Below are positions 1,345-17,905 of a stretch of 64,000 nt of DNA, piece after piece. Under the pieces are notes generated by a model. That model worked only from the letters and a program-made list of their open reading frames with translations. It did not search any database and was not told the origin of the DNA. Where the stretch lies: NCBI GenBank assembly GCA_016744135.1, contig JADGEX010000001.1, positions 124,001-188,000 on the forward strand. The letters run 5' to 3'. Numbering within the stretch: position 1 is the first letter of the stretch; the number at the start of each line of letters is the position of its first letter. The translations under genes were made by a program, and so were the position numbers. The stretch comes from Pseudodesulfovibrio sp. (GTDB lineage Bacteria; Desulfobacterota; Desulfovibrionia; Desulfovibrionales; Desulfovibrionaceae).

Positions 1345-1755
1345 ATGGCTCAGAAAGAGACACCCAAGGGCGCGATACTTCAGCGTGACAAGAAAACTTA
1401 TGCCATCGTTCCCAGAACGCCTGTAGGGTTGGTCACGCCGGATGTCCTTGAAGCCCTCGCCCGGGTCGGTCGGAAATTTGAAATTCCGATTATGAAAATT
1501 ACATCGGGTCAGCGGATTGCTCTTGTCGGTCTCGAAGAAGAGCAAGTGGATGCCGTTTGGGAAGACCTCAAGATGGACATCGGTCCAGCAGTGGGGTTGT
1601 GCGTGCATTATGTGCAGGCGTGCCCCGGCACTGAAGTTTGCAAGCTCGGTATTCGTGATTCATTGGGACTTGGCTTGGAACTCGAAGAGATGTTTGTGGG
1701 TAAGGAATTGCCTGCAAAACTTAAAGTTGGCGTGTCCGGCTGTCCCATGTGTTGC
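1345..1755 (+). pseudogene. 5' part of nitrite/sulfite reductase-like gene, paralogue 2, disrupted by island
   Basis: Translation from the ATG at 1345 (GGAG at 1332-1335) matches the intact paralogue at 10601-11254 through KGAILQRDK, TPVG, ITSGQR, CVHYVQACPGT and VSGCPMCC. After the Cys-Cys codons at 1750-1755 the frame runs into island sequence and stops at 1782. The missing end lies 30 kb away at 32212-32466. Joining base 1749 to base 32212 restores CCC-ATG-TGC-TGT-GCT-GAA and a gene of about 219 codons, the same size as the paralogues. The gene as it stands lacks half of the siroheme domain and should be inactive. Confidence 0.92.
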
Positions 1756-1815
1756 TGCTTTACACCGCACTTTACTATGTAAACTTAGACGACTTTTATC
1801 TTTTTTTAATAGAAG

Positions 1816-1845
1816 GATAGGGATTGACACCCTATCTTTTTTTTT
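1816..1845 (+). terminator. rho-independent terminator at left island end
   Basis: GATAGGG and CCCTATC form a perfect 7-bp stem with a 7-base loop, followed by nine T. It lies between the broken host gene and the recombinase operon and should stop read-through from the host operon into the island. Confidence 0.88.
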
Positions 1846-1848
1846 GAG

Positions 1849-1877
1849 TTGTGATTTCATGTAAACTGTAATAAAAT
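1849..1877 (+). promoter_or_regulatory. candidate sigma70 promoter of the recombinase operon
   Basis: TTGTGA (1849-1854) and TAAAAT (1872-1877) are 17 bases apart, directly behind the terminator and about 25 bases before the first recombinase start. One TGTAAAC repeat lies in the spacer, so a bound recombinase could repress this promoter. The promoter is a pattern match only. Confidence 0.5.
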
Positions 1878-1901: not shown

Positions 1902-3182
1902 ATGTCGTATACTGTTGTCGAAAATATTGGTTTAGACGGAGAGCGTCTTCCTGTTCTTCTGGCTCCAGATGGGGGGGTTCCATTTTTGCCCGCGTACTAT
2001 GTGGCAAGTATTTGTCGTCCTAGAGATTCTTCTTCGACAATAACTATAAAGCTTAATAATATTAAGTTCTTGTATGAGTGGACAAAGATATGTGGCTTTG
2101 ACCTTGAAAGGCGTTTTGAAAGTTCTGAAATGTTGTCGTCTAGAGAGATCGATAGTTTAGTTTATGTCTGTCGACTGCGTATGAAGAGTTTGAAAGCGGA
2201 ATATACTTATGCTTCAAATACAGTTTCTCCCAAAGACGTCGGCATAGTGCGAATAGGTGAGCAGCCTCCGAAGCTGGGTGACTCGAGTGAAATTTTTGTA
2301 AACCATTCAACTCAAGCAAGGCGTTTGGATAGTATTGCTAAGTATCTACAATGGATGAGTTTTGAGCTGATGAAAAATTTGGATCGAGCAAATCCTGAGT
2401 ATGAAAATAGAGTTGAAGCTACAAATAGAGTCATAGGTTGGATAAGGCACAGAATTCCGAGGCATATGGCAAGAAGTCAAAGTCGGTTATCTCCTCCACG
2501 TGGTTTTGAGAAGGAAGTACAGGACATAATTCTCGATCTTGTTGAGTCTGCCAATGTTAATAACCCTTGGAAAAACAAGTTTGTAAGGATCAGGAATCAG
2601 CTCTATATCACTATGTGTGTGATGCTTGGTCTGAGAATGGGTGAATCTCTAAGTTTGAAATTAGAAGATGTCTATCTGATGGGTGATCGCCCTAGAATTG
2701 ATATTGTCAGAAGGCCAGATGATCCTGATGAAAGTCGTATCCCAGCTCCGAAAGTAAAAACTTTGGAGCGTTCACTAGCTCTTGGCTCTTCTTGGGTGAA
2801 ACTGTTACCACTGTATTTGAAATATCGAAGGCGTCTTCGAGGAGCCAAGAAGCATCCTTATCTGTTTGTTTCAAGAACAGGCACCCCTCTGGCCTATAGC
2901 TCTGCTTGCAAGATTTTTACGACCTTGAGGGATAAGCACAGTCAATTGCCAAATGATTTGACACAGCATGTGATTAGGCATGCGTGGAACGAGCGGTTTT
3001 CTGAATATGCTGATGCTTCTGGGGTGTCAGCAGATGATGTTCGTGAAATACGAAGAGAAGCAATGGGGTGGAGCGTTAGTTCTGTTATGCCTGAAAAGTA
3101 TAATCAAAGATTCATCCAAAGAAAAACAGATGAAATATCAGTTCTGATGCAGGAACAAATGTTAGAGGATTGGCCTACATGA
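1902..3182 (+). CDS. tyrosine recombinase 1 of the island (TnpA/GmtY-like position)
   Basis: A site-specific tyrosine recombinase of about 426 residues. Catalytic positions can be read: Arg I in LGLRMGES (about residue 245), HxxR as HVIRH (about 356-359) and the nucleophile in EKYNQRF (Tyr about 400). The set therefore looks complete. The N-terminal half should be the core-binding SAM-like domain. The ATG at 1902 is preferred; a GTG six bases earlier is possible, and neither has a strong ribosome site. It is the first gene of a seven-gene operon and its TGA overlaps the ATG of the next recombinase (ATGA). The gene looks more A/T-rich than the helicase gene of the same operon. It probably acts with the next protein, as TnpA and TnpB of Tn554 do. 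Confidence 0.85.
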   Translation: MSYTVVENIGLDGERLPVLLAPDGGVPFLPAYYVASICRPRDSSSTITIKLNNIKFLYEWTKICGFDLERRFESSEMLSSREIDSLVYVCRLRMKSLKAEYTYASNTVSPKDVGIVRIGEQPPKLGDSSEIFVNHSTQARRLDSIAKYLQWMSFELMKNLDRANPEYENRVEATNRVIGWIRHRIPRHMARSQSRLSPPRGFEKEVQDIILDLVESANVNNPWKNKFVRIRNQLYITMCVMLGLRMGESLSLKLEDVYLMGDRPRIDIVRRPDDPDESRIPAPKVKTLERSLALGSSWVKLLPLYLKYRRRLRGAKKHPYLFVSRTGTPLAYSSACKIFTTLRDKHSQLPNDLTQHVIRHAWNERFSEYADASGVSADDVREIRREAMGWSVSSVMPEKYNQRFIQRKTDEISVLMQEQMLEDWPT

Positions 3183-4783
3183 GCAGTGTTGCTCCAAATA
3201 TAGAGTACACCCTTCCAAATGAAACCATCAGTCTTCAGGGGATTGTGTTTGATCCCAGCCCCAACCATTGGGAGCTTTCAGATGGATCTTACCGGCGGCA
3301 TTTTTATTTTGATGATATTCAGAGTAAGGCTACAGCTAATTTCTTTCGGAATATAAAAAGGGTTACGATTCATTTTGTGGAAGTGAATAGTCTCTCGACA
3401 GCTTTTATGTATCATAAGGCTGTTGAGAGTTTTTTTCGTGATTGTGTAGATGCAGATAGCTCAATAAATCAATTCTCATTCTCAAGACTTGTCAACTTTT
3501 TTGACAAATCACGTAAGTCACATTGTCGATCACTGAAGGCCTATGTTGAAAAGTTCTATGAATTGAAACTAGATGGTGTTGAAGATGATGTCTATTTTTT
3601 TGTTAAGAGTAAAAAATTTACAGAGGTTGGTTATCAGGCTGTCATGACCTGTGACCCTGAAAAAGGGCCATACACAGTGCAAGAATATCAAAGCCTCTTT
3701 AAAGACGTATTTGAATTGTACGCTGCTGGAAAAGTGGATGATTCATTCTGTCTGATGTTTTTGCTGATGCACTTGCTTGGGTGCAGACCTAGGCAGATTT
3801 CGTGGTTAAAAGTATGTGACTTTAAACAAGTTATTGTTGATGGAGTTGTCTCGAAATATATCCTTTCTGTCCCAAGAGATAAGCAAGGCCATGTTGAACC
3901 TCGTGTGGAATTTCGGGATAGAACAGTCACTTCAGACTTAGCTTTCTTGATTCAAAGAAGAATTGAGACCGTAAAAAATGAATATTCTTCGCTATATTAT
4001 GATGAAAATTATGATTTAAGCCAGTTACCTTTGGTCTACTCCAAGTGGGACAAAAATGAAAATGGTCCTTTGAAATATCATCCCTTGGTGACAGCTCTTA
4101 ATTCTCGTTTTAGATGTCACGCCTCAAGAAAAGTTCATATTCCATCTAGGACAGGAAAACAGCTTAGCATTTCATCTCGTAGAGCACGGTACTATTTAGG
4201 TACTTCGTTGGCTTTGCAGGGGTATGGGCCTAATATTATAGCTCAAATGTTGGACCATTCAAATACAGTCACATGCCGAGCGTATGTTCGTTTGGGGCAA
4301 GAAATGGCCGATATCATTGAGAAAGGGGTAGCCCAATACTACGCCCCCCTGATAGACTCATTTAAAGGCAAAGTTTTTGATAAGCCTAATCTGGTGGGCA
4401 CAAGGCAAACATACACCCCCGTTAGAACCTCAGACCTCTCCAAAGAAACAGGGGTGTGCGTGAAACCTACTGGATGCGGAGTTTATTTAGCAGACTCTTT
4501 AGAGCCAGAAACTTATCTCTCCCGTATTCCTTTTAGTTGCTACACCTGTCTTTCCTTCAATGCCTGGAATGACATCGAAACTCATGAAGAGCATTTGAAG
4601 ATTCTGAAGCGAGAGCGCGATCTTCATTTGAGAGCCTTCGAAGAAAGAGGGCAGGCCATTCAACCCAGTTTAGCCATGTCTTTTGATTTGACCATTCATG
4701 CAATCGAGAGGGTTATTATAAAAATACAACAGGGTGAAGTTGTAGAACTCGACCTTGAAGACGACATGGTTGACTCTTTCTGA
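3179..4783 (+). CDS. tyrosine recombinase 2 of the island, with Cys-rich C-terminus
   Basis: About 534 residues, starting at the ATG that overlaps the previous stop. Arg I is in GCRPRQIS (about 203). The HxxR box reads RRAR (about 334-337), with Arg in place of His. LDHSNT (His about 360) and RAYV (Tyr about 369) follow with the normal 23- and 9-residue spacing of XerC/D-type enzymes. After the catalytic domain comes a tail with CVKPTGC and then SCYTC, a spacing that could bind zinc. TnpB-type partners of Tn554-like elements are similar in being long and having extra C-terminal sequence. The tail may contact DNA or the partner recombinase; this is inference. Confidence 0.8.
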   Translation: MSSVAPNIEYTLPNETISLQGIVFDPSPNHWELSDGSYRRHFYFDDIQSKATANFFRNIKRVTIHFVEVNSLSTAFMYHKAVESFFRDCVDADSSINQFSFSRLVNFFDKSRKSHCRSLKAYVEKFYELKLDGVEDDVYFFVKSKKFTEVGYQAVMTCDPEKGPYTVQEYQSLFKDVFELYAAGKVDDSFCLMFLLMHLLGCRPRQISWLKVCDFKQVIVDGVVSKYILSVPRDKQGHVEPRVEFRDRTVTSDLAFLIQRRIETVKNEYSSLYYDENYDLSQLPLVYSKWDKNENGPLKYHPLVTALNSRFRCHASRKVHIPSRTGKQLSISSRRARYYLGTSLALQGYGPNIIAQMLDHSNTVTCRAYVRLGQEMADIIEKGVAQYYAPLIDSFKGKVFDKPNLVGTRQTYTPVRTSDLSKETGVCVKPTGCGVYLADSLEPETYLSRIPFSCYTCLSFNAWNDIETHEEHLKILKRERDLHLRAFEERGQAIQPSLAMSFDLTIHAIERVIIKIQQGEVVELDLEDDMVDSF

Positions 4784-4791
4784 GGACTCGT

Positions 4792-5253
4792 ATGCCCAAA
4801 AACATTACTCCTGAAATTCTCGCCAAACTTGAGCCGTATCTCGAGCAGCTTGATGCGTCTTGGGATGCCCAATCTGAAAGTCTGCGCCAGCCCACATTGC
4901 CAATCACACCTGATGGCAAGGTTAATGTGCGGGCCATTGCAAAGGCTATTGGTCTACGCCAGAGCCAGGAGCAACATTTCTATCGCAAACCAGAGCTAGC
5001 TACTCCCGTAAATGCACTGTGTTTGGTCCAAGGGGTCAAATCAATTGGCTCTCGTGTGCTCGCAGATCAAAGCGACAAAGCCGCCGCAGATCGCCTAGCA
5101 AGGACCACAACCGAAAAGAACAACCTTGCCCGCGTTCTCGCAGAAAAAGAGGCTGAGATCGAATCCTTACGCGAAGAGAATGCCATGCTTCTTTCAAGGT
5201 TGGCGCAAATCGAATCCACTGGGACTTCTCTCCGCACCGAATGGCCGGAGTAA
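4792..5253 (+). CDS. small HTH plus coiled-coil protein 1 (TnpC-like)
   Basis: A 153-residue protein with two parts. Residues about 40-70 (NVRAIAKAIGLRQSQ then FYRKPEL) look like a small helix-turn-helix. Residues about 95-145 are a heptad-rich helix (EKNNLARVLAEKEAEIESL then REENAMLLSRLAQIE). This layout recalls TnpC of Tn554-like transposons, an accessory factor that sets orientation or efficiency. Its stop overlaps the start of the helicase gene by 13 bases. It has no signal peptide or membrane segment. A DNA-bound adaptor for recombinases 1 and 2 is the best guess. Confidence 0.6.
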   Translation: MPKNITPEILAKLEPYLEQLDASWDAQSESLRQPTLPITPDGKVNVRAIAKAIGLRQSQEQHFYRKPELATPVNALCLVQGVKSIGSRVLADQSDKAAADRLARTTTEKNNLARVLAEKEAEIESLREENAMLLSRLAQIESTGTSLRTEWPE

Positions 5254-7373
5254 CAGTGCAGATTCAGGTTAAGCGCATAGTCAGCCAGAAGGCTTACGGT
5301 ACTATCTTCGCTGGGAAAATTCTCAATGATGAACGGGCCTGCGATCAAATCCAGGTCAAAGTCATTGCTGCGCGTATTGTGGGCGTTCCCTCATTGGGTG
5401 AAACATGGGAAGTATCCGGACCGATCAAGCACACGAAGTGGGGTGATCAGATGGAGGCTGAATACGCATACCGTCAGAAGCCCACAGGCAAGCTTCTGAT
5501 TAATTTCCTGTCCAATACTTGCCCGGGTGTGGGCCCGACCCGAGCAAATCGTTTGTGGGATATGTGGGGCAACAATCTGCCCAATGTTCTGTCCAGTGGA
5601 AGCGTGTCTGAAATAGCCCAAGTGATTGCGCCCAGCCGTCCTCTTCTCTCTATTCGGCTTGCTTCTCTAGTCTGCCGTGAATGGAAACGGCTGGAAGCAG
5701 AATCCGACTTAGCTGCATGGTTCCAATCTTATGGGATAGACTCTCCCCGGCTTTTGAAAATCTGTTCCACCACATTTGGAACAGATGTTGTGAATCGGCT
5801 CCGCAACAATCCTTGGTGTATGGCGTCAATGATGAGCTGGGAACAATGCGATGCGTTGGGTCTCAAGGTGCTTTTTGAAATTGGATCGGCTGCACCTCAG
5901 GCTTCAAACAAACGACTTCTTGGGGCCGTTGATTCTGCTGTCAGAGATATTCTAGCGTCCGGTTCTACCTCAGTTGGTCTCTTTGATCTGGAAGCACTGC
6001 TAATGGCTAAATTGGATGATTCTAAGCTAGTGTGCGATGCCGTACAGCTCGGGCTTGAATTCGGTGCAGTCCTCCACCGTGACGGCAAGTGGATGCCGCC
6101 TGGATCAGCCTTCATGGAACGATCTGTTATCGGAGCTTTGCGACAGCTTGAGGACGATGGCCAGATCAAAGTCGATGAGCAAAACGTCAGGAACATACTC
6201 ACAACGCTTAGTGCTGGTCACATCAGGCCCGACGAGGAACAGTTTCAGGCCATGCTTCAGATTTTGCGCTCGCCTCTTTCTTGTCTGGTAGGCGGCGCAG
6301 GAACTGGTAAGACCACGATCCTGCGTTACGTCGTACGGCTCTGGCACAGGCTTGGCGGCAACGCCCTCATGGCAACCCTTTCGGGTAAAGCTGCATTGAA
6401 ACTGAGTCAAAGCACGGGCCTGCAGGCAAAGACGTTAACCCGTACCTTGGCCGAACTCGAAGAAGAGAACGACCTGGCTGAGATCAACGAAAGGACATTA
6501 GTTGTTATTGATGAGGCCAGTATGGTTGATCTGGCTACTTTTCATGCGTTGATGAAGCATATGAAAAAAGAGTCCCGGTTGCTTCTGTCGGGTGATCCTG
6601 CACAGCTTCCCCCAATTGGCTTCGGCCTTGTTTTCCATGAGCTTGTGAAGGACGATTCTATCACGGTTAGGCTCAACAAGATTTATCGACAGGCCGCAGA
6701 CAGCGGCATCCCCTTGGTGGCAAAGGCTTTGCGCGATAGGCGTATGCCCACTTTTTCTCAGTATCAGGGAAAAGGTGAAGGTGTCTCCTTCATCCCGGCT
6801 TCACTGGAATCAATCCCGGCAATCATTGAACAGGTCGTGAACGACTTTGGCGGCTTCGAGGACTTGATGATCATTACCTCAACTAACCGTGGCCCGGCTG
6901 GTGTGGGGCAGCTCAATCGCCAGTTCCATGACAAGTATAAGCAGCAAAACAACTTGCCCGAACTCAAGGGCAGCTTGGGGCAATACTTCTGTCCAGGCGA
7001 GCCGGTGATTCACCTTAAGAACGACTACCAGCGTGGAGTCTACAACGGCAGTCTGGGGCATATTTTGGACGTCGATCGTGGCGAATATGACCTTACGGCA
7101 AACCTTGATGATAAAGTCGTCAGGTTCGACGCGAGGCAGATCATCGATCTCTCTTTGGCCTATGCGATTACTTGCCACAAGTGCCAAGGTTCTCAGGTGA
7201 AGCGAGTCATTGTCCCGATTTACCAGACTAGGTTGCTCGACCCCTCATGGTTGTATACGGCCATTACAAGGGCCGAAAAGCAAGTCGTGCTTACGGGTGA
7301 CAAAAAAGAGTTTGAACGGGCCTTAGAACGGAAATTCGCGGCTGATTGTCGCAATGTAGGGCTTAGGTGGTAG
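5241..7373 (+). CDS. RecD2-like superfamily 1B DNA helicase
   Basis: A 710-residue protein with RecD2/YrrC architecture: an N-terminal OB-like segment (residues 1-85), a helix-hairpin-helix (CPGVGPTRANRLW, about 94-106), Walker A GGAGTGKTT (about 350-358), Walker B VVIDEASMVD (about 421-430) and the C-terminal helicase motifs TCHKCQGSQ and YTAITRAEKQVVL. All motifs needed for ATPase and translocation are present. It overlaps the upstream coiled-coil gene and ends one base before the phosphoesterase ATG. RecD2 enzymes unwind DNA 5' to 3'. Inside a recombinase operon it may process the excised circle, replicate it, or resolve strand-exchange intermediates; no such role is proven. A degenerate second copy lies at 11357-11570. 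Confidence 0.85.
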   Translation: MAGVTVQIQVKRIVSQKAYGTIFAGKILNDERACDQIQVKVIAARIVGVPSLGETWEVSGPIKHTKWGDQMEAEYAYRQKPTGKLLINFLSNTCPGVGPTRANRLWDMWGNNLPNVLSSGSVSEIAQVIAPSRPLLSIRLASLVCREWKRLEAESDLAAWFQSYGIDSPRLLKICSTTFGTDVVNRLRNNPWCMASMMSWEQCDALGLKVLFEIGSAAPQASNKRLLGAVDSAVRDILASGSTSVGLFDLEALLMAKLDDSKLVCDAVQLGLEFGAVLHRDGKWMPPGSAFMERSVIGALRQLEDDGQIKVDEQNVRNILTTLSAGHIRPDEEQFQAMLQILRSPLSCLVGGAGTGKTTILRYVVRLWHRLGGNALMATLSGKAALKLSQSTGLQAKTLTRTLAELEEENDLAEINERTLVVIDEASMVDLATFHALMKHMKKESRLLLSGDPAQLPPIGFGLVFHELVKDDSITVRLNKIYRQAADSGIPLVAKALRDRRMPTFSQYQGKGEGVSFIPASLESIPAIIEQVVNDFGGFEDLMIITSTNRGPAGVGQLNRQFHDKYKQQNNLPELKGSLGQYFCPGEPVIHLKNDYQRGVYNGSLGHILDVDRGEYDLTANLDDKVVRFDARQIIDLSLAYAITCHKCQGSQVKRVIVPIYQTRLLDPSWLYTAITRAEKQVVLTGDKKEFERALERKFAADCRNVGLRW

Positions 7374-7374
7374 A

Positions 7375-8085
7375 ATGAAAAAAATCCTGATCTGCGGCGA
7401 TATCCACGGTGATTTTCAGGTCCTTAATTGGCTCTGTGAAACACAACAACCCAATCAAATAATACAGGTTGGGGATTTTGGCTATTGGCCTCGTTTGCCA
7501 GATCACGGCTGGCCGCCTGAGAACCCTTCTCTTCATAATGAAGGTGTTGTTATCCGCTGGATCGATGGCAACCATGAGGACCATTACTCTCTATCCAAGA
7601 TAGCGGCTACGGGAAATACCGAAGTCCTGCCTAACGTCTACTACCAGCCTCGTGGATCAGTTTTGGCGCTTCCCAATGGTCAGAATATTTTGTTCTTTGG
7701 TGGAGCTTCTTCAGGCGATCAGTGGAGAAGAATCGAAGGATTGGATTGGTTTCAAAATGAAATCCCTTCTGCTGCAGATATCGCTAAAATTCCTGATGAC
7801 ATCGAGATCGATATTGTAATCTCACATACTGCCCCTCAAAGTTTCAAGCTGCGTGAAGGCCCACCCCCCAAAGGGTATGCCTCTGCTCCTTGGCTTGCAA
7901 AGCACAGTGAGAAGACTCGCCAGATTTTGGACACAATCCTTCATCGCTATAAACCGAAGCATTGGTACTTTGGGCACTTCCACATGCACCAGATTGGGCA
8001 ATATGAAGAAACAGGAACTAAATGGACCGCACTGGCCATGCCAATGGAAGACGGCGAACAATGGTGGGCAGAACTGGGGGACTAA
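7375..8085 (+). CDS. calcineurin-like metallophosphoesterase
   Basis: A 236-residue protein with the full dimetal phosphoesterase set: GDIHGD at the N-terminus, GDFGYW, GNHED, SHTAP and GHFHMH near the C-terminus. It is cytoplasmic and single-domain. The family ranges from nucleotide phosphatases to nucleases of the SbcD/Mre11 kind; this short form lacks the capping domain of SbcD. It sits between a helicase and a recombinase with spacings of 1 and 25 bases, so it is part of the same transcript. Coupling of a phosphoesterase to a RecD-like helicase suggests nucleic-acid processing, but the substrate cannot be read from sequence. Confidence 0.8.
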   Translation: MKKILICGDIHGDFQVLNWLCETQQPNQIIQVGDFGYWPRLPDHGWPPENPSLHNEGVVIRWIDGNHEDHYSLSKIAATGNTEVLPNVYYQPRGSVLALPNGQNILFFGGASSGDQWRRIEGLDWFQNEIPSAADIAKIPDDIEIDIVISHTAPQSFKLREGPPPKGYASAPWLAKHSEKTRQILDTILHRYKPKHWYFGHFHMHQIGQYEETGTKWTALAMPMEDGEQWWAELGD

Positions 8086-8110
8086 TTGGAGCAATAGAAC
8101 GAGGAAAACT

Positions 8111-10162
8111 ATGGCGCAAATCATACATTTTAAACCTAAGCGTGAGGTAGACGCGATTGAGAACGTTAACGCTTTTATCGCAATGGCCAAGAATGAGTTG
8201 ACCGTCTTTGGCGCTAATCTGGATTGGGGTGATGTGAAGTGGCCAATTTCGAAGACTATTGAACTTCGATCTAGGAAGAGTGGAAATCAGTATTGGTATC
8301 GTTTTGGAGATGACTCAAGAGATGATAATCCGGTAAAAATGGAAAAGCCATTCGTTGATTTTGCTAAAGCCTATTTGCGGTACTCTTATGGGATGAAGCA
8401 TGTTAAAGATTTAGCTTCACAAATGGGTGCTCTTAAAGCTCTTGGACAAGCCTTGGTAAATGTACACAGTGTTCCGTGTGTTACTAACATAGATATAAAT
8501 GTGCTAAATGAAGCCCAAAGGTTGGCAGTTGATTATTATTGTCACAACAATGCAGCAAGCGTCTGTGCTAAGTTAGAAGTCCTTTCCAAGTTCCTGAATG
8601 ATAACTCTTTATTGAAGATTCCTCCCATGCGGTGGGTTCGATCTGTGCGGCAGAACAGTCCGGGTCGTGAGCCGGGGAAAGCCTATTTAGAACATCGGTC
8701 AGACAAGCTGCCCACAGATCGTTCACTGTATGCGTTGGGTGAGATTTATAACGATCCTAAAGATCAAATCTGTAAAGTTATTTCCTCTATTGGGGTTATA
8801 CTTCTCTCAAATCCTTGTAGAATTAGTGAAGTTTTGTCTATGCGCACTGACTGTGTGGTTTATAATCATGAAGGCATAGAAGGAGCTATTGGTTTGCGTT
8901 GGTTCCCCGCAAAAGGTGGGACACCATTAACTAAGCCTGTCCCCAGAGGGTGGAAGGAGCTTACTCTAGAAGCGCTTGGTAAAATTCTGAACGTTACCGA
9001 AAAAGCAAGAGAAATTGCTCTATGGTACGAAGACAACCCTGGAGAAATGTATCTCCCTCAAGAGTATAGTTATCTTAGAAGTGAAGAGTATATTGACCAT
9101 GTCGCTTTGAAGGGATTGTTGAATTGTGGAAGGGCTCATATTTACCACAAGATTTTTAAAGGGTTTGGTATTGAACCTATTTATAAAAACAAAAATAGCT
9201 ACCGGGTTCGATTTAAAGACATTGAGAAATATGTTTTGTCGTTGTTACCGGATAACTTCCCGTATTTTCATAAAGAATCTGGATTGAAATACTCAGATTG
9301 CTTGTTAGTCTTCCCTCTTCATTGGTTCAAAGATTATACTAAGGCATATGAGAATGTCATGATCCAGCCTGTTAGCATGAGTACGGTTTGTAGATTGTTT
9401 GGATCAGCTTCTTACGCTAATACTATCTTTGCCAGACACGGACTTACTGAAGAGGATGGTAGTCCAATAAAGATTTCAACGCATAACTTCCGTCATTATC
9501 AAGATACGGTGAGTGAATATGGTGGAATTGCTCAGCAGACTCGTGCTTATTTTGCTGGTCGAAAAGACATAAGACACAATCAGGCTTACTCTCATGCTGA
9601 TAAGGTCGTTCTGGCTGAGAAAGCCTTAACCATAAATGATCAAAGCGATGCTTCTCCAAGCAATACTAATTTTACGAATGAAATTTATAACCAGCCAGCT
9701 TTGTTGGCAGAGTACCTAGAGCGACAGCTTAATGAGATGGTTAACGTCATTGATGTTGGGTTCTGTACATTAGGTGACGGTCAAATCTGTCCAAAGATTG
9801 GTGACCATTTTCTATGTTCCAACTCTCTTTTTGTGAAAGGAGACAGTCGGTTCTCCCAATCGTTGCTGCCGTTGATAAATAAGATGGAGAAGGAAATTGC
9901 TGATTGCCAAGAGGCGCATCCCATAGTCGGAATTGATCCTTCTCTGATACATCACAAACAGGTCTTGTCAGTTCTTAAGGGATTAAATGCAATTAATGAA
10001 AATCCTGATATCCCAGATAATAGTTTTGTCAAACTCATACCTGGCAAAGACTTTTCACAAATTATAGTTGCCCATTATGAAAGGGGGCAAGAATACTTGG
10101 AAGAAGGGCAAGACAGCTCTTTCCCTTTATTGAAGGTAGGTGAGCTATGCCTGAGCGTTTAA
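8111..10162 (+). CDS. tyrosine recombinase 3 of the island (large, GmtZ/TnpB-like)
   Basis: A 683-residue protein whose ATG at 8111 has GAGGA upstream. A longer frame overlapping the phosphoesterase exists but is unlikely to be used. The catalytic set is visible: Arg I in PCRISEVL (about 237), HNFRH (about 458-462) and the Tyr in NQAYSH (about 493), with the 32-residue Arg II to Tyr spacing of canonical enzymes. About 190 residues follow the Tyr, including a region with spaced Cys (GFCTLGDGQIC, then CSNSLF). The last 16 bases overlap the next small gene. The size and the small partner recall the integrase plus accessory protein of gamma-mobile-trio elements; this assignment needs a profile search. 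Confidence 0.82.
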   Translation: MAQIIHFKPKREVDAIENVNAFIAMAKNELTVFGANLDWGDVKWPISKTIELRSRKSGNQYWYRFGDDSRDDNPVKMEKPFVDFAKAYLRYSYGMKHVKDLASQMGALKALGQALVNVHSVPCVTNIDINVLNEAQRLAVDYYCHNNAASVCAKLEVLSKFLNDNSLLKIPPMRWVRSVRQNSPGREPGKAYLEHRSDKLPTDRSLYALGEIYNDPKDQICKVISSIGVILLSNPCRISEVLSMRTDCVVYNHEGIEGAIGLRWFPAKGGTPLTKPVPRGWKELTLEALGKILNVTEKAREIALWYEDNPGEMYLPQEYSYLRSEEYIDHVALKGLLNCGRAHIYHKIFKGFGIEPIYKNKNSYRVRFKDIEKYVLSLLPDNFPYFHKESGLKYSDCLLVFPLHWFKDYTKAYENVMIQPVSMSTVCRLFGSASYANTIFARHGLTEEDGSPIKISTHNFRHYQDTVSEYGGIAQQTRAYFAGRKDIRHNQAYSHADKVVLAEKALTINDQSDASPSNTNFTNEIYNQPALLAEYLERQLNEMVNVIDVGFCTLGDGQICPKIGDHFLCSNSLFVKGDSRFSQSLLPLINKMEKEIADCQEAHPIVGIDPSLIHHKQVLSVLKGLNAINENPDIPDNSFVKLIPGKDFSQIIVAHYERGQEYLEEGQDSSFPLLKVGELCLSV

Positions 10163-10548
10163 CTCCAGATCGTATAAAAGCGATAGTTTCTGTTATCAAT
10201 GACCTAACGGGCAAGATTACATGGGATAACATTGTTGAAAAGTCTGCTCGATCTATTGGTATTAAGTATTCTAGGCAAACCCTTCAGAAATATGACGATA
10301 TCAAGAGTGCATATTACGCTAAAAAAGATCATAACAGCGAATCCCAAGGGCATAAGATTTCATTTTCACCTCAAGAGATGAAAAAAAAGCAAGATCGAAT
10401 TAGTGCGCTTGAAGATGAAAATGCTAAACTCAAGCTGATGGTATCCACTCAGGCCGCCCAACTTGTAAAATGGGCCTACAACGCTGCATCAAGAAATCTG
10501 ACAAAGGCCGATCTCGAAAAGCCCATGCCTCCTACTGAGCGACGTTGA
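10147..10548 (+). CDS. small HTH plus coiled-coil protein 2 (GmtX/TnpC-like)
   Basis: A 133-residue protein. The N-terminal part has KITWDNIVEKSA, then KYSRQTLQKYDDI, a helix-turn-helix-like pattern that I associate with small partners of trio recombinases. The second half is a coiled coil (KKKQDRISALEDENAKLKL). It overlaps recombinase 3 by 16 bases, so the two are made in similar amounts. It is related in plan, but not visibly in sequence, to the protein at 4792-5253, so each recombinase set seems to have its own adaptor. It is the last gene of the recombination operon. Confidence 0.6.
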   Translation: MPERLTPDRIKAIVSVINDLTGKITWDNIVEKSARSIGIKYSRQTLQKYDDIKSAYYAKKDHNSESQGHKISFSPQEMKKKQDRISALEDENAKLKLMVSTQAAQLVKWAYNAASRNLTKADLEKPMPPTERR

Positions 10549-10600
10549 TTGGCATTCTGTAAGGGTAATGAATCTTAAAAATACCAAGGAGAAATCCGCA

Positions 10601-11254
10601 ATGACCGACACTCCCAAAGGTGCAATCTTACAACGTGATAAATGTACTTATGCCATTGTTCCTCGGACTCCTGTGGGAATTGTGACCCCAGATGACTTGG
10701 AGCGTATAGCTGGAGTTGCCAGAAAATATGAGATCCCGGTCATCAAAATCACTTCGGGACAACGGTTCGCCTTAGTGGGTATGAAAGGTGAAGATGTGGA
10801 CCCTATTTGGTCTGACTTGGGGTTAGACATAGGAAAAGCTACTGAATTGTGTGTGCATTACGTTCAAGCTTGTCCTGGTACGGCAGTTTGTAAATTTGGA
10901 GTGCAGGACTCTCTGGGACTTGGCATAGAGTTGGAAGCTTTTTTTACCTCCCTGGATCTTCCTGCCAAAGCCAAAATAGGGGTGTCTGGGTGTCCTCTAT
11001 GCTGCGGTGAGAGCTTTGTGCGTGACATTGGCCTTTTTGGTAAGAAATCGGGTTGGACTTTGGTTATAGGCGGAAGTTCGGCCCGTCGTCCTCGCATTGG
11101 TGATATTCTGGCTGAAGATCTGGATAAAGACAGTGTGCTGGCATTAACGAAGCAATTTTTGGAATACTATAATTCCAACGCGAAAAAACGAGAGCGTACT
11201 GCTCGCTTCGTCGACCGGGTTGGTATAGACAACGTCAAGGAAAAATTACTTTAG
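10601..11254 (+). CDS. intact nitrite/sulfite reductase-like protein carried by the island, paralogue 3
   Basis: A 217-residue protein starting at the ATG at 10601 (AAGGAG at 10586-10591). It is co-linear with the interrupted gene over its full length, with identical stretches such as KGAILQRDK, YAIVPRTPVG and CVHYVQACPGT. The Cys motif reads SGCPLCCGES, encoded TGC-TGC at the position where the host copy is cut. It lies 52 bases after the recombinase operon and could be transcribed with it. The simplest reading is that the island destroys the host gene and supplies a working substitute. It differs at many residues from the host fragments, so it is not a recent duplicate. Confidence 0.85.
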   Translation: MTDTPKGAILQRDKCTYAIVPRTPVGIVTPDDLERIAGVARKYEIPVIKITSGQRFALVGMKGEDVDPIWSDLGLDIGKATELCVHYVQACPGTAVCKFGVQDSLGLGIELEAFFTSLDLPAKAKIGVSGCPLCCGESFVRDIGLFGKKSGWTLVIGGSSARRPRIGDILAEDLDKDSVLALTKQFLEYYNSNAKKRERTARFVDRVGIDNVKEKLL

Positions 11255-11278
11255 AAAGCTGTCGAATACATTGTAATT

Positions 11279-11323
11279 CCAGCTCTTCCTTGATGTTGTA
11301 TTGAACAGCAAAAATAGAGCTGG
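11279..11323 (+). repeat. inverted repeat behind the carried reductase gene, possible weak terminator
   Basis: CCAGCTCT (11279-11286) and AGAGCTGG (11316-11323) are perfect 8-bp arms with a 29-base loop. They follow the stop of the reductase-like gene. No T-run follows, so the terminator reading is weak. Confidence 0.3.
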
Positions 11324-11356
11324 GATTTATACTTTCGCATCAATTTTGTCTTCCTC

Positions 11357-11570
11357 TTACCAAGGAGAAGGTGAAGGTGTCTTCTTTATCCTAGCTGTGA
11401 GAGCTTGATGAGCGTTCCGCTCAACTTACCGTGGCCCGGCTGGTGTGTTGCCCGATTATCACCACCTCTTTGACAGCTTCAAGCAGCAAACCAACTTGCT
11501 TGAGTTCAAGGAGGGGACAACGTTTCTGCATATTGCTTGGTATTGGCTGTCTCATGTTTTGGAGGTTGTA
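11357..11570 (+). pseudogene. decayed fragment of a second recD2-like helicase gene
   Basis: Bases 11361-11396 match the helicase gene at 6765-6800 in 30 of 36 positions, and 11420-11447 match 6878-6905 in 27 of 28. Between them about 54 bases are lost relative to the intact gene. Weaker similarity continues to about 11560 (GCAGCAAACCAACTTGC, then TTTCTGCAT and ATGTTTTGGAGGT). Stops occur in every frame. This is therefore a relic of another copy of the same helicase family, in the same order and strand. It fills the 315-base gap before the cytochrome gene, and its last bases now provide that gene's GGAGG ribosome site. Confidence 0.85.
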
Positions 11571-12040
11571 TGAATAAGCTGTGTCGTCTGTGTGTGATGG
11601 TTATTTTGATCTTATTGGGGGTGTCTGTTCATGTGGCTGCTCACCAAGGGCTTAACCACGAAGAACCTACAAAGCACGCTTCAGCGATGATGCGGACTCA
11701 AAAAGCTATCCCTAATGAGTACAAGGTGATGGATAGGACTCCTGTTACTCCTGATGTTGCATCAATAGAGAAGGGCAAAGCTCTATTCAATGAGAATTGC
11801 AGCATGTGCCACGGTGAAAAGGGAGATGGCAAGGGAGAGCTTATTTCGGATATGGAGTTGTCCATAGCTAGCTTTAGGGACAAAAAGCACAGTGAGATGT
11901 ATGGGCCAGGTGAAAAATACTGGATCATTCAAAATGGAGTGGATGCTTTGGAGATGCCTGCTTTTCCGGAATTCTCGCCTGAGGAACGGTGGGCGCTGGT
12001 GAATTATATCATCTACTCTTTGCAGAATGAGAAGCCTTAA
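11570..12040 (+). CDS. periplasmic monohaem cytochrome c
   Basis: A 156-residue class I cytochrome c. The ATG at 11570 follows GGAGG at 11561. A signal peptide is evident (NKLCRL, hydrophobic core, cleavage after VAAH or nearby). The haem site is CSMCH at about residue 80, and the likely distal ligand is the Met of ALEMPAFPEF. It ends NYIIYSL as small cytochrome c domains do. It stands alone between the helicase relic and the oppositely oriented kinase-like gene. An electron carrier linked to copper or other metal stress is possible from the neighbours, but no partner enzyme is encoded nearby. Confidence 0.8.
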   Translation: MNKLCRLCVMVILILLGVSVHVAAHQGLNHEEPTKHASAMMRTQKAIPNEYKVMDRTPVTPDVASIEKGKALFNENCSMCHGEKGDGKGELISDMELSIASFRDKKHSEMYGPGEKYWIIQNGVDALEMPAFPEFSPEERWALVNYIIYSLQNEKP

Positions 12041-12065
12041 GAGCTGGGCTTTCTTTGCTTAAATT

Positions 12066-12096
12066 AAGAAAGGCCGTTCATTGGACGGCCTTTCTT
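12066..12096. terminator. bidirectional terminator between cytochrome and kinase-like gene
   Basis: AAGAAAGGCCGT and ACGGCCTTTCTT form a perfect 12-bp stem with a 7-base loop. It sits between two convergent genes and can serve both strands. Confidence 0.85.
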
Positions 12097-12112
12097 GTTT
12101 CTTGAAGGTTGA

Positions 12113-13114
12113 TTACTTTTCCATTTCTCGTGGGATAGTAACTGTAAATACCGACCCCTTCCCGACGACACTACGGGCTGTGATATCACCACCCAATTCT
12201 TTTAGGGTCTTCTTGCAGGCAGCAAGGCTGATGCCCGTCCCCCCCTCCTTGGTGGTAAAGAAGGGGGTGAAAAGCTTGTTTACATGCTCTTCAGCTATGC
12301 CGGAACCTTGATCTTCCACATCCAGCGTACAGTGATCACCATGTCTACGAGTTGTAATAAATACACTGGCACCTGCCTTGGAGGCGTCCTTGGCGTTATC
12401 GAGCAGCTTGGATAACACCCATAATACAGAATTTTTGGAAACCTTTGTCGGGCAACCACTGAGGTCTTTTCTTACTTCGAGGTTGATTCCTTTTTCTCGG
12501 TAGTGAATTTTGTATAGCTTTACCAACTCCAGAACTGCATCGTTTATGTCGATAGTTGATAGATTGAGGGTTTCCTTGGCTGCATATTGGGTCATTGAGC
12601 GGCTTAACGAATCTATGGTATCCAATTCTGCTCTGAAATCCTTATTAAGCTCAGCCTTTGCCAATCCGTCGCTCTTATTGAAAAGCCTTTTTAGCGCGTC
12701 AATATTATCCTTGACTTCCCAGCTGATGACCCCGACTGTTTCGCCTAGAGTGGCGAGCTTTTCGGCATTGATGAGTTCCTGGGTCTTCTTGCGTTGGTTG
12801 TCGGAGAGCCAACCGAGGAGGGCTGCTGAGAAGATGAAAACCGCGACCTGGGAAATCATGAGGGCGGCAGGCATGTGGGCACTGTCTGCCACCATTCCGA
12901 GGATAAAAAGAGCGGACACAATTATAGCTGTCACTACGCCGGACTTAAGGCCGAACCAGAATGCAGCAAGGAGGATCGGGATGAAAAAAAGTTCCCGATG
13001 GACTCCATGAAGTCCGAGGCTGCCGTGGAGGCCGCTGAAGTGAAGTCCTGCTATGGCGACGATACTAAAAATCAGGACGTACATTTTGATCCCATGCTTC
13101 GCTATCTTATTCAT
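12113..13114 (-). CDS. membrane histidine-kinase-like protein lacking the phospho-acceptor His
   Basis: A 333-residue protein with an N-terminal block of four to five hydrophobic helices (residues about 8-105) and a C-terminal kinase module. The dimerisation box reads TVGVISWEVKDNI where functional kinases have a His at the Trp position (compare VAHEVRNP in the kinase at 17956-19797). The codon is TGG, so this is not an ambiguous call. The ATP-binding parts are kept: LLDNAKDAS (N box), DQGSGI (G1), FFTTKEGGTG (F and G2). It may bind ATP and regulate by conformation, or be phosphorylated elsewhere. It is oriented like the PP2C phosphatase at 21318-23414 and was its neighbour before the Tn3-type insertion. 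Confidence 0.8.
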   Translation of the reverse strand: MNKIAKHGIKMYVLIFSIVAIAGLHFSGLHGSLGLHGVHRELFFIPILLAAFWFGLKSGVVTAIIVSALFILGMVADSAHMPAALMISQVAVFIFSAALLGWLSDNQRKKTQELINAEKLATLGETVGVISWEVKDNIDALKRLFNKSDGLAKAELNKDFRAELDTIDSLSRSMTQYAAKETLNLSTIDINDAVLELVKLYKIHYREKGINLEVRKDLSGCPTKVSKNSVLWVLSKLLDNAKDASKAGASVFITTRRHGDHCTLDVEDQGSGIAEEHVNKLFTPFFTTKEGGTGISLAACKKTLKELGGDITARSVVGKGSVFTVTIPREMEK

Positions 13115-13192
13115 GACAACTCCTTCGTTGAGACCCTACAATAATATCTGCATTCAGTTTTATTTGTAAACAGACGGGGCGCAGCTATGCCT

Positions 13193-13197
13193 TATAA
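13193..13197. repeat. target-site duplication, left copy
   Basis: TATAA directly outside the left inverted repeat. The same five bases flank the right end at 21298-21302. Confidence 0.9.
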
Positions 13198-13235
13198 GGG
13201 GGCACTCCATAGAGCGGACAAAGTTGCACGTTAAG
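13198..13235 (+). repeat. left 38-bp inverted repeat of the Tn3-family transposon
   Basis: It begins GGGGGCACTCCATAGAGCGG and shares GGGG-CACTCCATAGA, GG, AAA and GCACG with the right end. The last few bases overlap the 3' end of the transposase gene, as is common in this family. Confidence 0.9.
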
Positions 13236-16155
13236 GCGTTTGGCCAAGATTCCAGATATAATCTCCTGTGAGATTGATGTGCTCCCATCCAAGCGGAGAA
13301 AGGTAGCTCTGAAACTCCTCCGGAACATCCATTTCCTCTCGTACTTTTTTCACGGCCTTTTCCAGATAGACCGTGTTCCAGAGGATTATCGTAGCTACGA
13401 CAAGGTTTAGACCAGAAGTCCTATAGCACTGGCTTTCAAAAGAACGATCTCGGACTTCTCCGAGTCGATTGAAAAACACTGCACGAGCAAGTGCGTTTCT
13501 GGACTCCCCTTTGTTCAGACCGGCTTGAACACGAGAACGGAGTTCTGGCTTTTTGACCCAATCCAATAGGAAAAGAGTCCTTTCCAAACGCCCAAGCTCG
13601 CGTATGGCCAAAGCCAATTTGTTTTGCCGTGGATAGGAGGCCAACTTACGAATTATGAGGGATGCCGTAACGGTTCCCAATCGAATTGAGCTTGCCAGCC
13701 TCAATATCTCTTCCCATTGGTTCTCAATGTCCTTTTGCTTGATCTTTGATCCTATCAACGGCTCCAGGTCAGCCCAGCGTTTTGCGCTGCCAAAGGTGTA
13801 TAGTTTTACGTCACCTATGTTGCGAATTCGGGGAGCAAAACGAAATCCGAGCAAATGGCAAAGAGCAAACACATGGTCCGTAAAACCTGCGGTGTCAGTG
13901 TAGTGTTCTTCAATATTGAGATTGCTTTCATGGTAAAGCAAGCCGTCCAGGACATAGGTTGCATCGCGTGCTGTTGCGTTGATGAGCTGGCTGTGAAATG
14001 GGGTGTATTGATCCGAGATGTGGGTGTAGAAAATCACACCGGGATCTCGCCCATATCGAGCATTTACATCTCCGAGGCCTCGACCAACACTGCCAAGAGG
14101 AAAGTGCTGCCCGTCTGAAGACGAGGTGGAGCCATCGCCCCACTGTCCTGCAAGTGGAATTATGTGGTGGTAATTGGTTATCTCAGCCAACCCTCTGGAA
14201 TAGCATTCGCTTCTGACATACCAATCCGAAACCCAAGACAACTGTTTATACGAGGCCCCGGAACTAGCCTCTGCCATCCTTGTCAGTCCAAGATTAATCC
14301 CATCTGAGAGAATCACTGACAAAAGAGATTCCTTGTCTTGAGATGGTTGGCCAGTTCTCAAATGAGTGAATTGTTCGGTGAAACCTGTCCATTGATCTAC
14401 TTCAATGAGGAGATCGGTAATTTTAATGCGAGGAAGCTCTGCATATACGCGCCGGCTGAATTGCTTGGCTTCATCGGGAACAGAGTTACCCCTATATGGT
14501 TGCATTGAAAGCCTACCATTCTTGAGACAAACCGTATCCAAATCATTGCTTCTGAGAAGCCTTTGGAATTCTTCCAACTGACTTTCAAGGAGTTCTTTCC
14601 GCTCTGAGATGTATCTTGTGCAATCCGTTTCGACCGCTACAGGTATTTCACGAGACTCCTGAAGCTGACGAAAAGCGGAAGGGCCCATGAGGTATTCGTT
14701 GAAATCTTCGAATTGACGGCTGCCTGGTACCCATACATCGCCAGAACGGAGTCGGTTACGGAGTTCGCTTAAAGCGCACAGTTCATAGTACCTACGGTTC
14801 AGGCCATCAGTTTCGAAAATAAATGGTTGCCAGCGTTTTGGGATAAATGAAGTAGGAACTTGGTCGGGCAATTTGCGTTTGCCCGTTTTGTTCATGTCAC
14901 GGATGATATCAATAGCTGTAAGAACATCCCGTCCACCAGAGCTTGCACGGAAGTCAAAATGCTCCAACATGGTTGGAGCATACCGCCGAATCTGATTGAA
15001 ACTCGTGTCAACATAATGGAGATAATCGAACCGCTGAGGTTGAGACAGGTTTTCAGCAGCTTCAACCGTTGCACGAAAATCATCCCAGGACAGTTCAGCC
15101 TCGATTAGCTCCCAAGGGTCTAAATGCTCCTCACGCGCTTTGATTAAGGCTTGGCCAAGCTTTGAGAAAACGTTGACGGTTGTTTTGATGTTCTTTGCAT
15201 CATCTTGTAGCTGAGTAGCCTGTTTTCGTTGGCTACGCCGCATTAGGGAGCCAATGATGCGGTCATGCATGTTGACGACCTCATCCATTAAGGAGCGTTG
15301 AATTTCAAGCAAGCATACGGTCATGATCGTATACCGTCTTTGTTCATTCAACATTCGCAGATTATGCACAGCAATTCGATTACCTTCTTGGGCAAGTTGC
15401 TTGCGGCGAATTGTCGGTACTGCGTCCAAGACCTCGGAAGGAAGATCAAGCAACCGGATAGCGGCCAACTTTTCCATTATCAAAATCACATTTATAGGAG
15501 AAGGACGGCCAGCAGGTTGACGAATCCATGAAAGTCTACTCTGTGATTTCTCGCCTCGTGGATTAAGCCAAAATTCAAGATCAGCCTGGTGCCTGTCGGA
15601 CAACAGGCCGGTCACTTCATTGTAGACTCTGCGATCTGCTTGGATCTTCACCTGGGCAACGAGGCGTTCCACAACTGTCAAAGCAGGATGCAGAATTTTG
15701 CGACGTCTCAATTCATTTAGGGTTGCACCTACAAGGAAAGTACTCTTTGGATTGTCTACAGCAATTGGCGTCAGCCAGCGCACCATCTCTTGATAGTGAC
15801 TATCTCCAAATCTTGAAAGCCGGAAAAACTCTATCAAGGTCTTAAAATGCTCTCTGCGCGTCTGGTCTCTGTCCGCGTAGCCACAGAAGACTTCCGACTC
15901 TTCTCCTATTTGCTCTGCAATGAATTCGACCAAGGAATCGGGAATTTCATCATCGGGTCGTAAGGCCCTTCCAGGGAATTTGATGAGACAGAGTTGTAAA
16001 GCAAATCCGAGCCGATTGCGTGGCCGTCTACATTTGGAAATAAGTGCAAGTTCGTCTTCGTCCAAAACGTAGTACCGTGTGAGTAAATCCGGAACGCTTG
16101 GTAAGACTTCAAAAACGGTTCTCTGGGAAGAGGAAAGGACTGTTCTGCGAGGCAT
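13231..16155 (-). CDS. tnpA: Tn3-family transposase
   Basis: A 974-residue protein of the normal length for Tn3-family TnpA (about 950-1010). The N-terminal DUF4158-like DNA-binding part is followed by the large DDE domain. Recognisable family segments are ADRDQTRREHF near residue 100, and YHESNLNIEEHYTDTAGFTD and FALCHLLGFRFAPRIR around residues 730-770. It ends LTGDYIWNLG, close to the family consensus. No frameshift or stop is seen. It is divergent from the resolvase gene. It catalyses replicative transposition to a cointegrate, using the terminal repeats at 13198 and 21297. Confidence 0.95.
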   Translation of the reverse strand: MPRRTVLSSSQRTVFEVLPSVPDLLTRYYVLDEDELALISKCRRPRNRLGFALQLCLIKFPGRALRPDDEIPDSLVEFIAEQIGEESEVFCGYADRDQTRREHFKTLIEFFRLSRFGDSHYQEMVRWLTPIAVDNPKSTFLVGATLNELRRRKILHPALTVVERLVAQVKIQADRRVYNEVTGLLSDRHQADLEFWLNPRGEKSQSRLSWIRQPAGRPSPINVILIMEKLAAIRLLDLPSEVLDAVPTIRRKQLAQEGNRIAVHNLRMLNEQRRYTIMTVCLLEIQRSLMDEVVNMHDRIIGSLMRRSQRKQATQLQDDAKNIKTTVNVFSKLGQALIKAREEHLDPWELIEAELSWDDFRATVEAAENLSQPQRFDYLHYVDTSFNQIRRYAPTMLEHFDFRASSGGRDVLTAIDIIRDMNKTGKRKLPDQVPTSFIPKRWQPFIFETDGLNRRYYELCALSELRNRLRSGDVWVPGSRQFEDFNEYLMGPSAFRQLQESREIPVAVETDCTRYISERKELLESQLEEFQRLLRSNDLDTVCLKNGRLSMQPYRGNSVPDEAKQFSRRVYAELPRIKITDLLIEVDQWTGFTEQFTHLRTGQPSQDKESLLSVILSDGINLGLTRMAEASSGASYKQLSWVSDWYVRSECYSRGLAEITNYHHIIPLAGQWGDGSTSSSDGQHFPLGSVGRGLGDVNARYGRDPGVIFYTHISDQYTPFHSQLINATARDATYVLDGLLYHESNLNIEEHYTDTAGFTDHVFALCHLLGFRFAPRIRNIGDVKLYTFGSAKRWADLEPLIGSKIKQKDIENQWEEILRLASSIRLGTVTASLIIRKLASYPRQNKLALAIRELGRLERTLFLLDWVKKPELRSRVQAGLNKGESRNALARAVFFNRLGEVRDRSFESQCYRTSGLNLVVATIILWNTVYLEKAVKKVREEMDVPEEFQSYLSPLGWEHINLTGDYIWNLGQTP

Positions 16156-16291
16156 TTGAACCCACTTGTATCTTTTCTAGAATCAATAACGTATTGTTAA
16201 CATAGTTTGTGATACGGAATAAGGTACAGGATATCGTACCTACCTGAACTATATTGGACATGTAACTCAAACGAGGGTTTGTGAACAGCCT
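16156..16291. other. intergenic res region between tnpA and tnpR
   Basis: The 136-base gap between the divergent transposition genes is A/T-rich and contains short inverted elements such as GGTAC-N8-GTACC. In Tn3-family elements this is where the resolvase binds (res) and where both promoters lie. The individual subsites cannot be assigned by eye. Confidence 0.6.
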
Positions 16292-16918: not shown

Positions 16919-16945
16919 GTCGTCAACTTCATTTATTGCGATATC

Positions 16946-17209: not shown

Positions 17210-17278
17210 GATTTAATCTCCTTATGAGCATGAGAGGTGAGGGGGAGTTTCCTCCCCCATCGAATTCGAGATTCAGAC

Positions 17279-17710: not shown

Positions 17711-17759
17711 GATAATTTCTCCTATTGAGTGTTTTGTGAACAAGCTTTGCAATGACTAA

Positions 17760-17775
17760 GGCAAGACTGATGCCA
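17760..17775 (-). promoter_or_regulatory. sigma54 (-24/-12) promoter of the ZraP-like operon
   Basis: On the minus strand the sequence is TGGCATCAGTCTTGCC, close to the consensus TGGCAC-N5-TTGCA. It gives a leader of about 40 bases before the ATG. The neighbouring response regulator carries the sigma54-activating AAA+ domain, which supports the call. Confidence 0.8.
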
Positions 17776-17905
17776 AAGAATGACAAAAACCTACAAGCCG
17801 CACTTAATATTGGAGAAAAGTATTTTCCAGCGGAATCCGCCGCGTAATCTGGATTGCGAAGGTAGGCGTGAGTGCTTAAAAAGTGTACACATGAGACATG
17901 CAGAG

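Follow-up and report, generated by a model that had tools for sequence, protein, structure and literature searches.

What does a helicase do in the midst of an operon of site-specific recombinases? The question is raised by 64,000 nucleotides of Pseudodesulfovibrio sp. DNA (contig JADGEX010000001.1, positions 124,001 to 188,000; this whole stretch is called the window below). Near its left end seven genes follow one another closely: three recombinases (R1, R2 and R3), two small proteins termed adaptors (A1 and A2), a RecD2-like helicase (HEL) and a metallophosphoesterase (MPE). A preliminary description of the locus took them for a mobile-element module with several tyrosine recombinases, and this general view is borne out. 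By homology and gene order, the seven genes make up the recombination operon of an island of 30.46 kb, of the GInt type, which interrupts a siroheme sulfite-reductase-like gene at its Cys-Cys codons. Judged by its neighbourhoods elsewhere, the A1-HEL pair forms a two-gene accessory unit of its own, which has found its way into several kinds of operon with multiple tyrosine recombinases.

A GInt island inside a reductase-like gene

The coordinates of the open reading frames, taken with preferred start codons, confirm that the seven genes lie on one strand where the preliminary description had placed them, with less than 30 bases of overlap or gap between neighbours (overlaps of 4, 13 and 16 bases; gaps of 8, 1 and 22 bases; Table 1). 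The families proposed for them held up unevenly. Profiles support R1, HEL and MPE and, more weakly, R2, whose Phage_integrase match (0.0047) is below the Pfam cut-off and whose match to the NCBIfam site-specific integrase model NF041502 scores 246 bits against a cut-off of 350. Neither Pfam nor NCBIfam gave an informative match for R3, A1 or A2, and R3 and A2 are identifiable only by homology to genes 3 and 4 of the gin-type operon carried by plasmid pTROUS1. R1, R2, R3 and A2 align in order to that operon, and in the same order to the one of plasmid pEQ011 (30, 26, 29 and 31% identity). Both of these operons sit just behind an ssb gene, a preferred insertion site of GInts (Bardaji et al. 2017, PMC5385486). 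In that paper, GInts are defined by a ginABCD operon, cargo behind ginD and an AT-rich 3' end, and GinD is described as similar to TnpC. Because of the homology and order of the four genes, the cargo behind ginD and the AT-rich right end, the element is filed as a GInt, and R1, R2, R3 and A2 are by homology its ginABCD operon, the assignment being made through gin-type operons behind ssb and not through the founding Pseudomonas GInt sequences.

The residues R, K, HxxRH, W and Y of R1, which we take to be the tyrosine recombinase catalytic set, are invariant over six homologues, as are HxxRH and Y of R3 over 6 homologues. The alignment of R2 homologues held one misframed row (G032a), and therefore no invariant residues are claimed for GinB. 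Gin operons just behind ssb were also seen on other plasmids and chromosomes, in some loci by annotation (L029, L030, L126, L129, L130) and in others by reading (L112, L114, L115; G and L numbers are our own handles for genomes and loci).

The borders of the island were read from a genome of the same species (G159), in which the reductase-like gene is intact and represents the empty site. It is 100% identical to the window over positions 1-1755 and 99.2% identical over 32212-38527. The seven genes are not the whole element, whose borders lie at 1756 and 32217; they are the left part of the island. The 5' fragment of the split gene, searched as 1330-1779, matches Pfam NIR_SIR_ferr (9e-14) and NIR_SIR (7e-7). 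GInts are described as inserting by way of a staggered core of 6 nucleotides, the left and right copies of which need not agree (PMC5385486), and a 6-nucleotide core with differing copies, as in recombination of the GInt, SE and Tn554 type, is what the window has. Among 42 rows of homologous genes, some of which repeat the same tandem genes, the Cys-Cys codons read TGCTGC in 20, TGCTGT in 14, TGTTGC in 5 and TGTTGT in 3. Since the right core of the island is itself a natural Cys-Cys hexamer of this gene family, it resembles a trace left when the island was previously inserted in a gene of this kind.

A recurrent adaptor-helicase pair

How firmly is the helicase tied to its neighbours? A1 homologues were searched for in 297 genomes of the class (5 places), in a plasmid collection (1 record) and by a pattern-based scan with one genome per species (23 loci), which gives 29 loci, the window included. 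In every one of them a RecD2-like helicase gene lies directly 3' of A1 on the same strand (in L053 and L070 the contig end cuts it after its start), and A1 is therefore assigned to the helicase. The division of the operon into two symmetrical recombinase-plus-adaptor sets, as first proposed, has to be given up: the order is GinA-GinB-[A1-HEL-MPE]-GinC-GinD. Genes of multi-recombinase elements (GInts, gamma-mobile-trios or other trios) adjoin the pair in 29/29 loci, the recombinase assignment being weak in 11.

These neighbourhoods are of several kinds. The arrangement GinA-GinB-A1-HEL-GinC-GinD is found in the window, in G001, twice in G032 and, partially, in L049. On the Acidiphilium plasmid NZ_CP041717 a tyrosine recombinase and a VPA1269-family (GmtZ-like) protein are followed by A1, HEL and an annotated gmtX. 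In L052 and L071 the pair directly precedes a GmtX that scores above its curated cut-off; an IS3-type gene pair, recognized by reading, takes the place expected for the recombinases in L052. The genes before A1-HEL in L050 are GmtY-like (172 bits, cut-off 340) and GmtZ-like (271, cut-off 600), with a weak GmtX (19, cut-off 40), while L069 and L070 resemble gamma-mobile-trios by similarity to the Acidiphilium proteins. A trio with a small protein accompanies A1-HEL in G065, L051 and eleven loci of a betaproteobacterial type, and other trios do so in L053, L058, L060, L067 and L068. In the trio of L054, a XerA profile matches the first gene (9e-6) and Phage_integrase the third (6e-4); no Pfam match was obtained for the first and second genes of L054, the second of L053 or the first of L064 and L065. 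A profile-profile comparison of the betaproteobacterial-type trio with GinA gave an E value of 0.014 and a probability of 3, so that these eleven trios may be called recombinases only weakly. Two further scans were negative: with the A1 alignment no A1 relative was found in 61 stretches of viral contigs, and with recombinase 2 alone no relative was found in 25 stretches of genome contigs.

A few observations on these loci may be added. On the Acidiphilium plasmid a recA gene (L028 15464-16504) adjoins the gamma-mobile-trio operon that carries A1-HEL. The second G032 element (L015, L016) may be decayed, because its GinB gene is in two open pieces (G032:C1:2024573-2026155). The first G032 element apparently splits a gene too; a 41-residue fragment of this gene had no match among the loci compared other than its own left flank.

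Seen from the recombinases, the helicase is an optional guest. A GinB profile found 10 loci in 9 of the 297 class genomes. HEL is present in six, between ginB and ginC in four of them and directly after ginD in two (G156 and G221), where an A1-like gene accompanies it (E 4e-6 and 2e-4). HEL was not found in the stretches fetched at the other four (G162, G103, G012, G014), nor in those of thirteen further gin operons, three of which come from 369 genomes of a second class, one from G301 and nine from the 64 plasmid records matching recombinase 2. Thus HEL occurs in 6 and MPE in 1 (the window) of 23 gin operons inspected, a non-random sample counted apart from the gin-like operons found through A1 (L049, L058, L060). 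The preliminary description had itself reasoned that the helicase and phosphoesterase would be cargo if most relatives of recombinases 1 and 2 occurred without them, and with 17 of the 23 gin operons lacking the helicase in the stretch fetched, this is largely what is seen. A minimal ginABCD element is reported both to integrate and to excise in Pseudomonas (PMC5385486). For these two reasons the helicase is best described, from gene content, as a recurrent accessory and not a core gene of GInts. Its proposed membership in the machinery survives in part: recurring with A1, it is more than chance cargo, but it is not core.

The phosphoesterase fares worse, and the proposal that it is a core gene does not stand. 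MPE was not detected in the 28 other A1-HEL loci nor in the 22 other gin operons. Since it is found once among the 29 and once among the 23, in the window each time, it is probably a passenger of the window operon. Its relatives occur in 23 plasmid and 313 phage records, with 25-31% identity among the matches listed.

The pair has a history of its own. Among four elements of the same genus, A1 and HEL are 77-84% identical, whereas the recombinases and GinD are 33-58% identical (R2 of the second G032 element, being in two pieces, was left out). Agreement at four-fold sites is 49-58% for A1 plus HEL and 28-35% for the recombinases plus GinD, with 25-30% expected from composition; the contrast has Fisher p values of 3e-4 to 2e-10 in 6/6 pairs, with sites treated as independent. 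The GC content is 0.50-0.54 in A1 plus HEL versus 0.40-0.46 in the recombinases. The A1-HEL pair is of more recent date than the divergence of its neighbouring genes and has therefore been swapped in. On a tree of 27 element helicases and the host RecD2, the gamma-mobile-trio label has to change three times or more on well-supported branches; three changes may represent a single gain plus two losses. The helicases of the GInts fall into a single group. Several branches are long and make the details of the tree unsure.

What sort of proteins are these? AlphaFold2 modelled A1 from 24 sequences with pLDDT 88 and pTM 0.56, placing helices at 6-26, 46-52, 57-65, 67-80 and 87-143. In our reading of this model, A1 would consist of four short helix-turn-helix-like helices followed by a long coiled coil (helix 87-143). 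HEL scores 351.9 bits with the RecD2 model TIGR01448, whose cut-off is 500, and is not a RecD2 equivalog by that measure. The RecD2 profile covers most of its length, HHH and SH3 domains fall just below their Pfam cut-offs, and its best solved relative is 3e1s/3gp8 (E 2e-37). The RecD2 of the host is encoded elsewhere and is 31% identical to HEL over the core.

The carried gene copy, the cargo and the ends of the island

The target gene is not only split by the island; an intact, divergent copy of it is also carried inside. This copy (searched as 10568-11251 or 10598-11251) starts 52 bases behind ginD, in agreement with the GInt feature of cargo at the ginD stop. Its identity is 64% with the G159 gene, 70% with the surviving 5' part of the host gene and 70% with the best other match in the 297 class genomes. 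That it is an ordinary host paralogue was considered and rejected: it lies inside the borders of the element, and the three family members of G159 are all at most 64% identical to it. Since consensus matching found no promoter-like or terminator-like site within 10450-10700, the copy is probably transcribed with the gin operon. We infer that it may replace the split host gene, so that the element would spare its host. If correct, this points to a way for a GInt to interrupt a conserved metabolic gene in its middle at a bearable cost.

Table 1. Positions in the window of the island, its operon, its cargo and the halves of the split gene
Feature	Coordinates	Strand	Evidence or remark
5' fragment of split host gene (small siroheme nitrite/sulfite reductase-like)	1345-1755	+	cut in Cys-Cys codons
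Left 6-bp core TGTTGC	1750-1755	+	same as empty site
Whole inserted element (GInt)	1756-32217	+	30,462 bp; empty site in G159
Intrinsic-terminator-like hairpin, left end	1811-1841	+	consensus match only
Promoter-like site upstream of ginA	1849-1877	+	consensus match only
R1 (recombinase 1, GinA)	1902-3182	+	Phage_integrase 1.4e-11; first gin gene of pTROUS1, 33%, E 2e-58
R2 (recombinase 2, GinB)	3179-4783	+	NF041502 7e-73, below cut-off; second gene of pTROUS1, 27%, E 4e-39
A1 (adaptor 1)	4792-5253	+	HEL directly 3' in 29/29 A1 loci
HEL (RecD2-like SF1B helicase)	5241-7373	+	TIGR01448 6e-105, below cut-off
MPE (calcineurin-like metallophosphoesterase)	7375-8085	+	Metallophos 5e-12
R3 (recombinase 3, GinC)	8108-10162	+	third gene of pTROUS1, 32%, E 4e-104
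A2 (adaptor 2, GinD)	10147-10548	+	fourth gene of pTROUS1, 36%, E 2e-24
Intact divergent copy of target gene	10601-11254	+	NIR_SIR 2.7e-26, NIR_SIR_ferr 7e-14
Cargo	11570-31984	.	Pfam on 11 cargo proteins
AT-rich right end	32068-32217	+	23% GC in last 150 bp
Right 6-bp core TGCTGT	32212-32217	+	differs from target hexamer
3' fragment of split host gene	32218-32466	+	tail matched at 32209-32460; 54% to carried copy over 84 residues

Behind the copy, the cargo proteins include a cytochrome c, histidine kinases, a Tn3-family transposase with a resolvase, a sigma-54 regulator, a SpoIIE phosphatase and OEP/CusB/AcrB-type efflux genes; no mobilization gene is among the 11 scanned, a point of likeness to SEs. 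The Tn3-family transposase and the serine resolvase are nested in the cargo at 13231-16918, and none of four inverted-repeat pairs in 11200-18000 flanks them. The part at 17279-31984 reads as a metal-response and efflux island, with a heavy-metal-resistance-like protein, a sensor kinase with a sigma-54 regulator, an OEP, a CusB-like protein and an AcrB-type pump. Upstream of ginA, the segment 1756-1901 has a folding z-score of -2.7. An 8-base motif, TATGTAAA, lies near the left end (1776-1783) and, inverted, near the right end (about 32171-32178); it could be a recombinase-binding site or a chance occurrence.

Possible roles of the pair, and comparison with known systems

The reading that we consider probable is that of a known GInt in which the gin proteins carry out strand exchange, a copy of the target is carried along, A1-HEL acts as a processing module and MPE is a passenger. 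GinA, GinB, GinC and GinD would perform a 6-bp-staggered strand exchange between the element ends and the target site. A1, with its predicted DNA-binding head and coiled coil, might tether the helicase to the complex of recombinase and att site. The end left by a tyrosine recombinase is a 5'-hydroxyl, and helicases of the RecD2 type travel in the 5' to 3' direction; for this reason HEL could unwind from the strand end freed by the recombinase. The half-exchanged intermediate would then be replicated or resolved without waiting for host helicases, on which elements without HEL would rely. The docking, the strand polarity, the processing role and the function of the gene copy are what we infer here.

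Such a step has a natural place in what is described of related elements. The model proposed for SEs has a single strand exchanged, requires removal of the bound integrase and lets replication produce the circle; this copy-out model needs processing of the half-exchanged intermediate and, in the available text, names no helicase (PMC10214605). GInt circles are reported from all tested bacteria and empty sites from some only (PMC5385486). The word helicase is absent from the main text of both papers as available, and none is named for GInts, SEs or gamma-mobile-trios in the titles and opening abstract lines of the literature matches listed, though the main gamma-mobile-trio paper may describe one. 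A wider suggestion, offered tentatively and with less than even confidence, takes relaxase-linked helicases in rolling-circle transfer as its analogy: A1-HEL might be an exchangeable module devoted to processing, which GInts, gamma-mobile-trios and other recombinase trios have picked up and in which a helicase recruited by recombinases turns a half-finished exchange into copy-out replication.

Several points weigh against a processing role in a working GInt. The docking step draws on a predicted model and on linkage, and both the connection of A1-HEL with excision, integration or circle replication and the activity of the element in this host are putative. A profile search of solved structures with A1 gave weak coiled-coil-type matches only (best E 0.025), and HEL also matches the RecD of type IV-D CRISPR systems, with 195 bits versus 352 bits for RecD2. 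The 17 gin operons in whose fetched stretches no helicase was found mean that it is not needed in general. A search of plasmids with A1 found it in 0/64 of the records matching recombinase 2, its one match being the gamma-mobile-trio plasmid. Finally, beyond the 6-bp core no longer repeat is evident at the junctions, as against the flanking direct imperfect repeats of 10-17 nucleotides described for GInts (PMC5385486).

What else could the pair be doing? It might be a defence or anti-defence module that protects against nucleases while travelling in recombinase operons, acting on invading or damaged DNA and not on recombination of the element. HEL does match several PADLOC models, including type IV-D RecD (5e-58); a CBASS-like pair of an oligonucleotide cyclase and an E1-E2 protein lies behind a helicase-bearing gin operon in G032 (L013 8176-10937; the right ends of the G001 and G032 elements were not located), and Avs4 lies behind the gin operon of pEQ011. 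However, A1-HEL stands inside the operon and not in the cargo, either between ginB and ginC (4 loci) or between the VPA1269-family gene and gmtX (Acidiphilium), multi-recombinase element genes adjoin it in 29/29 A1 loci, and neither A1 nor the Gin proteins have a PADLOC match. We regard this explanation as rather unlikely.

Quite improbable, in our view, is that A1, HEL and MPE are all neutral cargo that landed by chance and is kept only through co-transcription, even though the 17/23 operons without the helicase and the functional minimal ginABCD in Pseudomonas (PMC5385486) speak for it. For MPE this is probably right. The pair, however, recurs in GInt, gamma-mobile-trio and other trio operons of distant bacteria. 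A1 always comes ahead of HEL, and the two take up several different places within the operon or at its end. In the four same-genus elements their proteins are 77-84% identical while four-fold sites agree only at 49-58%, which suggests selection on the proteins. One may also imagine HEL and MPE as a tyrosyl-DNA processing pair that frees the DNA end from the covalently bound recombinase, the missing step of copy-out. The superfamily of MPE includes nucleases, and MPE has a weak match to RNA lariat debranching enzyme (E 0.0014). Its presence in 1/29 A1-HEL loci and its phage and plasmid phosphoesterase relatives make this hardly credible. The processing reading of A1-HEL thus stays the one we favour. 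As to the movement of three-recombinase elements, work on SEs favours a copy-out route that calls for processing enzymes (PMC10214605). Built into operons of this sort in several families, a helicase with a fixed partner offers a concrete candidate for the processing step, and its role becomes testable by simple gene removal.

How does the element compare with known systems? Tn554 and the gamma-mobile-trios had been named as having part of its arrangement; some likeness to both remains, and the closest system found is one that had gone unnamed, the GInt. GInt islands share with it the left-end set of four homologous genes and their order, the cargo behind ginD, the AT-rich right end and the differing 6-nucleotide cores. 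It differs from them in having A1-HEL(-MPE) between ginB and ginC, and in its mid-gene insertion at metal-binding Cys codons together with a full copy of that gene. To our knowledge, Tn554 (TnpA, TnpB, TnpC) has neither a helicase nor a target copy. It has a small TnpC partner and a 6-bp footprint in common with the island, and differs by its two recombinases (PMC10214605). SEs also have several recombinases plus a small protein and a 6-bp fingerprint; their core is IntA-Tfp-IntB-Srap, and the paper that describes them separates them from GInts by sequence and gene order (PMC10214605). By that description, and by its match to gin-type operons, the element would be set apart from SEs. Some gamma-mobile-trios (GmtY-GmtZ-GmtX) carry the same A1-HEL pair, before gmtX in NZ_CP041717 and in L052 and L071. 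Membership of the island in that group was rejected, GmtY giving 25.7 bits on R1 (cut-off 340) and GmtZ and GmtX no match to the seven proteins. Compared with RecD2 helicases, HEL lies below the equivalog cut-off, is separate from the RecD2 of the host and is preceded by A1. The element is thus of a known kind; its novelties are an adaptor-helicase module that recurs and can be exchanged, and a copy of the target gene that may stand in for the split one.

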